Source: Candidatus Rokuibacteriota bacterium (GTDB lineage Bacteria; Methylomirabilota; Methylomirabilia; Rokubacteriales; CSP1-6). From it: a stretch of DNA of 64,000 bases. Numbering within the stretch: position 1 is the first letter of the stretch; every line of letters starts with the position of its first letter. The notes beneath the pieces are model-generated. The model worked only from the letters and a program-made list of their open reading frames with translations. It searched no databases and was not told where the DNA came from. The stretch covers positions 1 through 64,000 of the forward strand of contig QHSX01000050.1 in assembly GCA_003221695.1 (NCBI GenBank), given 5' to 3'. Shown in pieces: positions 22,825 through 24,761 of the stretch. Both the position numbers and the translations under genes were made by a program.

Positions 22825-22989
22825 ATGAGCGAGTTCACTCTCAGCGTTGAGACGCTCGAGGAGCGCATCGCCCCGACGCTCGTGGTCGGCGTCGGTGCCG
22901 GTGTCGGCGTCGGCGTCGGTGCCGGCGTTGGCGTCGGGACCGGAGGCGACGGTGGCTGTGACTGTGAGGAAGAGGACAGCTGCGATTAG
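22825..22989 (+). CDS. RiPP-precursor-like small peptide, 54 aa
   Basis: MSEFTLSVETLEERIAPTLVVGVGAGVGVGVGAGVGVGTGGDGGCDCEEEDSCD; strong SD gaaggaggt about 7 nt before ATG; adjacent to an RRE/M50 gene. Confidence 0.75.
   Translation: MSEFTLSVETLEERIAPTLVVGVGAGVGVGVGAGVGVGTGGDGGCDCEEEDSCD
22891..22938 (+). repeat. Two 24-nt tandem units encoding VGAGVGVG x2
   Basis: gtcggtgccggtgtcggcgtcggc / gtcggtgccggcgttggcgtcggg. Confidence 0.8.
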
Positions 22990-23035
22990 TTCCTGACGTC
23001 GATGCTTGATCGCAGCCTCAAGAGGAGGTAGTGGG

Positions 23036-23060
23036 GACCAGCCCGGAAGGGCCGCTGGTC
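23036..23060 (+). promoter_or_regulatory. Intercistronic hairpin between precursor peptide and M50 gene
   Basis: GACCAGC-ccggaagggcc-GCTGGTC, perfect 7-bp stem. Confidence 0.45.
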
Positions 23061-23126
23061 GGCCAGAGGTTCTTCCGGGCCGGTTCTCGCGCTCTCGCTC
23101 CGGCGGTCTGAGGGATTCGGGCACCG

Positions 23127-24761
23127 ATGACATCGGGGGAGCCCAAGCTCCGGAGCGATCTCGTCATCAGCCGCCAGGACGGCGTTGTCGTCGTCAAGGA
23201 CCCGATAGCGGGTCGGTTCTTCCGGTTCAGAGAGGTCGACCACTTCGTCGCGAGCCAGCTCGACGGCGCCACCTCGCTCGGAGAAATCTGCGAGCGGACC
23301 CGACAGAAGGTCGGCGCGACTCCGACGCCCGAGGTGGTCGAGGGATTCGTCGCGACACTCGGGCGCCTCGGGTTGCTCGAGACCGTAGCGGCCGGACAGG
23401 AGGCCTCTGTCCCAGAGTCCCGTCGGCTTCGTGGGGATCTGTTCCATCTGAGGCTCCACGCCTTCGATCCCGATCCCTTGCTGGAGCGCCTCGTCGGCAA
23501 GGTCCGGCTCTGCTTCACGCCGTACTTCGTCGCCGTCTCTTCGCTCGTGATCCTGGCATCGCTGGCCATACTGATCGGGCACCGGGCCGACCTCGCGCGC
23601 GACCTCACCCGTCTCTATCGCGTCCACACGGTCCTCTTGGTGTGGCTGGCCATCTTCGGCGTCGCGGCGGCGCACGAGTTCGCGCACAGCCTCATGTGCA
23701 AGCACTTCGGCGGCCAGGTCCGCGAGATGGGTGTCCTCCTCATCTACTTCCAGCTCGCCTTCTACTGCAACGTGAGCGACGCGTGGCTCCTCCCCGAGAA
23801 GTCGAAGCGGCTCTGGGTGACGCTGGCCGGGCCCTACGTCGAGCTCGTGCTCTGGGCGATCGCCGTCCTGACCTGGCGGTTCACCGGCGCCGACACGTGG
23901 CTCAGCGCGATGGCGCTCGTCGTGGTCGTCACCTCCGGCGTCAGGCTCGTCTTCAACCTCAACCCACTCATCAGGCTCGACGGCTACTATCTCCTGAGCG
24001 ACGCGCTCAGTCTCCCGAACCTGAGAGCGCGCGCCTTCAGTTACGTGAGCGCCCGGCTCGCGCGCCTCCGGAGGTCGCAAGGCCCGACCCTTCTGGAAGC
24101 GAGCCCGCGGGAGCGACGGATCTACCTCGCCTACGGTCTCCTGGCGGGCGGTTACTCCGCCTGGCTCCTCGGCGGGATCGTCTGGGCGCTGACACGCCTT
24201 TTCACCGAACGAAGCCAGGGCGCCGGGGCGGTCCTGTCCGCTGGGCTGCTCGTGGCACTGTTCCACGGCCGGCTCAAGCAATGGCTCCCGCGACCGGCGC
24301 TCCTGCAGCTCCTCGTCGCCCTCGGCCTCGTGCTGGTCGCGCTCTTCCTCGGGCGGACGGAGCTCACGGTCGCGGGCGAGTTCACGGTGACGCCGCGCCA
24401 CGACGCTGCCGTCCGTGCGGGGGCGCGCGGTCTCGAGGCTCTGACGGCGGAGGTCACCGTTCCCGAGAACGGGATCGGCGACGTGCAGGTCGGTCAGCCT
24501 GTGGTCCTCCACGCGCGAGCCCTTCCAGAGACGAGCTTCGTCGGCCGGGTCACTGCCATCGTCCCGACCGCGGCCAAGGAAGGCGAGGCAGGGCGAGGGA
24601 AGGTCGTGAGGGTCACGACCGTCGTCGACAACGCCGAGCGTGTGCTGGAGCCGGCGATGACCGGGGACGCCAAGATCTACTGCGGAGAGCGGCGGATCGT
24701 CGACTTGCTCACCCGGCGGTTCGCCGGCTCCCTTCCGGCGAAGGGCGGGTCGTGGTGGTGA
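23127..24761 (+). CDS. PqqD/RRE-like N-terminus, M50 (site-2-protease-like) membrane metalloprotease, HlyD/lipoyl-like C-terminus
   Basis: DGVVVVKDPIAGRFFRFREVDHFVASQLDGATSLGEICERTRQK (PqqD-like); AAAHEFAHSLMCKHFGG (HExxH); NLNPLIRLDGYYLLSD; GDVQVGQPVVLHARALPETSFVGRVTAIVP. Confidence 0.8.
   Translation: MTSGEPKLRSDLVISRQDGVVVVKDPIAGRFFRFREVDHFVASQLDGATSLGEICERTRQKVGATPTPEVVEGFVATLGRLGLLETVAAGQEASVPESRRLRGDLFHLRLHAFDPDPLLERLVGKVRLCFTPYFVAVSSLVILASLAILIGHRADLARDLTRLYRVHTVLLVWLAIFGVAAAHEFAHSLMCKHFGGQVREMGVLLIYFQLAFYCNVSDAWLLPEKSKRLWVTLAGPYVELVLWAIAVLTWRFTGADTWLSAMALVVVVTSGVRLVFNLNPLIRLDGYYLLSDALSLPNLRARAFSYVSARLARLRRSQGPTLLEASPRERRIYLAYGLLAGGYSAWLLGGIVWALTRLFTERSQGAGAVLSAGLLVALFHGRLKQWLPRPALLQLLVALGLVLVALFLGRTELTVAGEFTVTPRHDAAVRAGARGLEALTAEVTVPENGIGDVQVGQPVVLHARALPETSFVGRVTAIVPTAAKEGEAGRGKVVRVTTVVDNAERVLEPAMTGDAKIYCGERRIVDLLTRRFAGSLPAKGGSWW

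Follow-up and report, generated by a model that had tools for sequence, protein, structure and literature searches.

The closest known system to the one described here is that of the daptides, in which the precursor MpaA has a leader with the motif ELExMEAP and a Pro at position -1, and the protease MpaP is a site-2 protease with a RiPP recognition element (RRE; RiPP, ribosomally synthesized and post-translationally modified peptide) (PMC10036551). Another described system is that of the epipeptides (yyd/epe), whose M50 protease, EpeP/YydH, carries out intramembrane peptide maturation and is thought also to export the peptide (PMC10885120). This report concerns two genes on contig QHSX01000050.1 of a Candidatus Rokuibacteriota bacterium from soil; the window is the whole stretch of 64,000 nucleotides (nt) that was analyzed. 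One encodes a peptide of 54 amino acids (aa), and the other a 544-aa protein in which a PqqD/RRE-like domain is joined to an M50 protease. We predict that the pair is probably a minimal peptide-maturation cassette, consisting of a daptide-like precursor and its leader peptidase. The original prediction, made from the letters of the window, had paired an open reading frame (ORF) of 54 codons behind a strong Shine-Dalgarno sequence with a 544-aa ORF; both were confirmed, with a gap of 137 nt between the stop of the first and the start of the second at 23127. The features are as follows.

22810..22817, + strand: Shine-Dalgarno sequence AAGGAGGT of the peptide gene (sequence; similar sites precede most related ORFs)
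22825..22989, + strand: gene for the 54-aa precursor-like peptide (ORF; relatives P0001-P0003 and P0009; family profile search)
22825..22875, + strand: leader MSEFTLSVETLEERIAP (motif E-x-L-E-x-R-I-A-P; synonymous codon changes; likeness to daptide ELExMEAP)
22876..22986, + strand: predicted core TLVVGVGAGVGVGVGAGVGVGTGGDGGCDCEEEDSCD, a Gly/Val repeat and an acidic Cys tail (sequence; relative P0002)
23037..23084, + strand: long intergenic hairpin with arms 23037-23058 and 23063-23084 (folding; hairpins in 10 related loci)
23127..24761, + strand: gene for the 544-aa RRE-M50 protease with a truncated HlyD C-terminus (NF041824, 215 bits, cut-off 300; structure model)
23127..23396, + strand: PqqD/RRE-like domain, residues 1-90 (AlphaFold model; Foldseek; TfuB1 sequence match)
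23469..24350, + strand: M50 site-2 protease membrane domain (invariant catalytic residues; fold match 3b4r)
24354..24695, + strand: remaining HlyD beta-barrel part (HlyD_D23 profile positions 143-212 only; full-length relatives; tree)

The linkage between the peptide and the protease is real. Small ORFs were sought in the class Rokubacteria, in 96 genomes (a phylum-level search gave the same 96), by matching the DNA to a degenerate LE[x]RIAP pattern; the close protease group is present in 13 genomes, the peptide in 13 and both in 11. Expressed differently, the peptide is in 11 of the 13 protease-bearing genomes versus two of the 83 others (Fisher p = 6.6e-11), and so the conserved co-occurrence on which the original prediction depended was found. 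Wherever the DNA upstream of a close homologue is intact, small LE[EAQ]RIAP ORFs directly precede the protease gene in the same orientation. The discordant genomes include contig ends in G036 and G048 and a protease without its 5' part in G083, and in G088 the peptide is at the end of one contig and the protease at the end of another. An orphan peptide in G054 was considered as a counter-example and rejected, since it is followed by an ORF that resembles a broken protease N-terminus. Some loci have tandem peptides, four at one locus of G051 (G051:C107) and two in G016. The genome context covers this class and some plasmids; a search of assembled contigs gave one locus, that of the relative G067, and none was found in the viral contigs searched. 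No neighboring gene is kept across the related loci examined. In three genomes (L046, L050 and L052) a gene with ...ITSDEA.RVV.E.VYL.GRPPL.DF adjoins a long-form protease.

The 544-aa protein matches the NCBIfam model for the daptide intramembrane metalloprotease, NF041824, over residues 40-380 (341 aa), and by its sequence it is a divergent relative of MpaP. Its AlphaFold model has a mean pLDDT (predicted local distance difference test) of 76, and the N-terminus is arranged strand-strand-strand-helix-helix-helix. Foldseek places this domain with the leader-bound lasso-peptide RREs 5v1v, 5v1u and 6jx3 (TM 0.71-0.77 by target length); its sequence match to TfuB1 has an E of 0.023. PF05402 is above cut-off in the relative P0146, and the window protein itself is below the PqqD cut-off. 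The modeled strand and helix order, the lasso RRE matches and the PF05402 hit support an RRE (PqqD) fold for the N-terminus, as had been supposed. The fold matches of the model also include the site-2 protease of Methanocaldococcus jannaschii (3b4r) and adaptors of the MacA type. H183, E184 and H187 (HEFAH) and D285 (NPLIRLDG) are invariant in 35 sequences. An M50 site-2 protease domain with intact catalytic residues, first suspected from its HExxH motif, is thus also supported, by the NF041824 match, the 3b4r fold and the invariant HEFAH. A scan of the protease against a defense-system library gave no match. Most genomes of the family have one copy of a second, distant PqqD-M50 protein (~30% identity), and no LExRIAP ORF was found in the loci of this group that were scanned. 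The copy in the same genome as the window (L127, G000:C3, ~33440-34780) is downstream of a cyclic-nucleotide-binding-like ORF.

Several observations concern the small gene. The GGAGG of AAGGAGGT ends 8 nt 5' of the ATG, and Shine-Dalgarno-like sequences are ahead of most of the related small ORFs. The E, L, E, R, I, A and P of the motif E-x-L-E-x-R-I-A-P are invariant in 18 aligned peptides, and in the 18 motif copies from relatives all of the changes in the codons for L, E, R, I and A are synonymous (L, CTC 9 and CTG 9; R, CGC 8, CGG 7 and CGT 3; A, GCC 7, GCT 4 and GCG 7). Because the codons vary only in this way, the leader is conserved at the protein level, and the small ORF is more than a chance one. 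The motif is matched only once in the genome that contains the window, and a reversed control pattern is not matched there at all. In the relative P0002 the leader and tail are those of the window peptide, and the Gly/Val repeat is 8 aa shorter. Between related peptides the leader is conserved and the cores are completely different, which supports the suggestion that the small ORF is precursor-like; at the C-terminus the window peptide has CD, and relatives have CE, SSSS, SANP, HGSK and others. By analogy with the daptide Pro at -1, cleavage would be after Pro17 and would give a core of 37 aa.

Both proteins belong to larger families. The protease has over 2,000 relatives, and a search with the profile of the peptide family gave 3,855 matches at E <= 10 among the 8,000 candidates scored; Verrucomicrobiae and Candidatus Eisenbacteria are among the sources that are named. 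The best 120 peptide matches form a few core families, namely GTGGYDGQPGNQ..NPSGSANPE, HGSK repeats, NHVN repeats, GNNGWGNGAEG and the Gly/Val-Cys type of the window. The cores are mostly hydrophilic across the family, so that there is no single conserved membrane-active type. The core GTGGYDGQPGNQ.....NPSGSANPE is near-invariant across proteins of different phyla (P0155-P0266), unlike the typical variable antimicrobial cores.

The resemblance to daptides has several parts. In both systems an RRE is fused N-terminally to an intramembrane site-2 protease, the precursors are short and have a leader motif E-L-E-x-x-x-A-P, some loci have several precursors, and the core is hydrophobic in the window's clade. 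The motif E-L-E-x-R-I-A-P is of the same length, keeps L, E, A and P and has R-I in place of the daptide M-E. However, most relatives have a fused HlyD domain, the cores are mostly hydrophilic across the family, and the core of the window peptide ends in Asp and not in the invariant C-terminal Thr of the daptides. Models for the daptide decarboxylase pair, aminotransferase and methyltransferase had no match in the nine neighboring genes scanned. Without these tailoring enzymes and without a C-terminal Thr, the system is not filed as a daptide. The same scan gave no match to radical SAM, YcaO, LanM or ABC exporter models, which agrees with the expectation that no radical SAM enzyme, cyclodehydratase, LanM or ABC exporter is adjacent. 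The pair is an isolated two-gene unit, because the genes on both sides, amidohydrolase-like upstream and transporter-like downstream, are on the opposite strand. EpeP/YydH of the epipeptides is likewise an intramembrane M50 protease; however, the window protein scores 38.7 bits with its model, NF058609, against a cut-off of 225, it has a fused RRE domain and no radical SAM epimerase gene is adjacent.

The C-terminus was originally read as HlyD/lipoyl-like. The beta-barrel part is indeed related to HlyD-type adaptors of tripartite pumps (HlyD_D23; MacA fold match), but only this half of HlyD is present (HlyD_D23 positions 143-212), and the lipoyl (barrel-sandwich) and alpha-hairpin/coiled-coil part is deleted relative to P0037 and P0041. 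Relatives at 55-66% identity are mostly ~810 aa and have a full HlyD adaptor. In a tree built from the N-terminal 440 residues all of the short forms (544-572, 657, 428 and 416 aa) are in one clade (support 90), which is nested in a well-supported 14-row clade whose remaining members are two full-length proteins. The adaptor has thus eroded within the window lineage. A sequencing error was considered and rejected as the cause of the truncation; P0036 and the other forms of 544-572 and 428 aa are in separate clusters and in one clade. In G037, which is of the same genus and has the same amidohydrolase gene upstream, the HlyD part is absent and the peptide and RRE-M50 part are kept, and therefore we read the RRE-protease part as the essential partner at loci of the window type. 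Since the adaptor part is being lost in this clade, the function retained there is likely to be cleavage and not tripartite export. For the same reasons, the deletion here and the absence of the whole HlyD part in G037, the proposal that one protein both cleaves and exports the peptide is doubtful at this locus.

In lantibiotic loci, inverted repeats that follow the precursor gene reduce expression of the processing genes downstream. Here a strong hairpin lies between the two genes at each of the 11 loci examined (at 23037-23084 in the window, and intergenically in L021, L042-L048, L050 and L054), with folding z-scores of -1.7 to -5.3. In 10 of the 11 the best simple hairpin beats all or nearly all of 119-150 random windows, taken from the same locus or, where the locus is short, from the window; the exception, G049, has a stem with a larger loop (z -4.1). 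The hairpin sequences are conserved in the three closest loci and unrelated between distant ones, and Rfam and sigma-70/terminator scans were negative. By analogy, a comparable expression-lowering role is plausible. Just 5' of the hairpin, at 23020-23034, AGGAGGTAG occurs a second time, in a copy that G037 conserves and G067 nearly conserves; it is 1 nt from a GTG that opens a 26-codon frame in the same reading frame as the protease, and may be what is left of a second precursor or else a regulatory site.

Taken as a cassette, the pair would work as follows. The 54-aa protein would be a precursor whose leader ends in E-T-L-E-E-R-I-A-P. The PqqD/RRE-like domain would bind this leader and present the peptide to the intramembrane M50 zinc site, and a cut at or just after Pro17 would release the 37-aa core, with its Gly/Val repeat and acidic Cys tail, at the membrane; the intergenic hairpin would keep the peptide mRNA above the protease mRNA. 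Leader binding, the position of the cut, what becomes of the core and what the hairpin does are all inferred. Some results weigh against a cassette of this type. The NF041824 score of 215 bits is below the curated cut-off of 300. When the peptide-RRE read-through chain of G067 was modeled with AlphaFold, the RRE was confident and the leader was a low-confidence short helix (pLDDT ~56-60) with no strand pairing. The nine neighbors include no exporter, immunity or tailoring gene adjacent to the pair, and the full HlyD of most relatives suggests export in the wider family. Overall, the precursor-like ORF, the RRE fold, the M50 protease and the co-occurrence of the original prediction stand; the lipoyl/HlyD export module is not supported, nor is a single conserved membrane-active type of core.

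The distant relatives of the protease have a different partner. Proteins of 28-34% identity are on alphaproteobacterial plasmids, behind giant proteins annotated as LEPR-XLL (NF012209) or similar, in operons that also hold DUF3467, HlyD, another adaptor, a SecA-like ATPase, which is annotated as prepilin peptidase, helicase or SecA, and sometimes TolC. Such operons are at L099, L100 and L102 (plasmids NZ_CP024200.1, NZ_CP085155.1 and NZ_AP022333.1) and at L113, L115, L116, L118, L119, L122 and L123; the SecA-like protein of L100 (9966-11987), annotated as prepilin peptidase, scores 585 bits with a SecA model. Operons of the composition LEPR-XLL/DUF3467/HlyD/PqqD-M50-HlyD/SecA-like/adaptor-TolC are a candidate for a secretion system that has no ABC transporter. 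The operon core is also in seven Rokubacteria genomes. In the 96 genomes LEPR-8K proteins accompany the distant protease group (four of seven versus two of 89, p = 1.5e-4), and they have no association with the protease group of the window. Examples of the N-termini of the giant proteins are LKMEALEPRFLLSAD and FRVEPLEPRLLLSGD; like the peptides, these proteins have an N-terminal hydrophobic-x-hydrophobic-E-x-L-E-x-R in the same register, beside a homologous RRE-M50-HlyD protein, and hhalign aligns the two sets of N-termini in register over 12 columns (P = 0.0037, probability 9%). This is suggestive of a relationship between LEPR-XLL N-termini and the peptide leaders. However, the cargo has thousands of residues versus ~50, the motif is LEPR-xLL versus LExR-IAP, the operons have extra genes, and the protease identity is 28-34%; NF012209 has no match in the window peptide or its own genome. 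We advance only tentatively, and consider somewhat doubtful, the idea that this N-terminal code, read by a PqqD/RRE on an M50 protease, could be a general Gram-negative, ABC-independent maturation and export route for both ~50-aa LExRIAP peptides and giant LEPR-XLL adhesins, the latter driven by the dedicated SecA-like ATPase.

These operons bear on the first alternative, that the leader is an export signal, that the RRE-M50-HlyD family delivers proteins with an LExR tag, whether tiny peptides or giant adhesins, to a channel of the TolC type, and that cutting has a secondary role, with the copy in the window degenerating. The composition of the operons, the register of the leaders and the full adaptor of the group-A relatives, mostly ~810 aa, would all fit. 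However, no SecA-like or second-adaptor gene is near the group-A loci, the motif likeness is short, and the catalytic residues and the peptide persist where the lipoyl/hairpin part, or in G037 the whole HlyD, has been lost; we consider this alternative unlikely. A true daptide-type RiPP with its tailoring enzymes elsewhere in the genome would explain the daptide-like leader motif and leader peptidase, but with none of the daptide tailoring enzymes (an oxidative decarboxylase pair, an aminotransferase, a methyltransferase) encoded next to the pair and a core that ends in Asp, it is very improbable. We give equally little credence to the peptide being a regulator or substrate-mimic of the protease and not the precursor of a released product: a single small gene directly 5' of the protease, with no exporter or tailoring gene, could be so explained, but tandem peptides with differing cores, the variation in repeat length and the Cys tails fit products better. 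Finally, that the small ORF is untranslated and its similarity a by-product of GC-rich repeats is extremely improbable, for although the Gly/Val part is of low complexity and an antisense ORF (22540-23133) overlaps the same DNA, the antisense ORF matches no family and was rejected as a real gene, the leader codons vary only synonymously, Shine-Dalgarno-like sites are present, and the linkage extends across genera.

In conclusion, this probable pair of a daptide-like precursor and its leader peptidase adds a large family to the RRE-guided peptide systems. No description of the family was found in the open literature searched, whether of bacterial LEERIAP peptides or of the combination of RRE, site-2 protease and HlyD, for which the search gave only the daptide paper (PMC10036551); nor was any account of LEPR-XLL systems, or any mechanism for handling the LEPR-XLL giants, found there. 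If the tie to the LEPR-XLL proteins is true, it would provide a testable mechanism for the handling of these giants. In its smallest form, one peptide and one protease, the system makes leader reading and intramembrane cleavage testable without tailoring enzymes.
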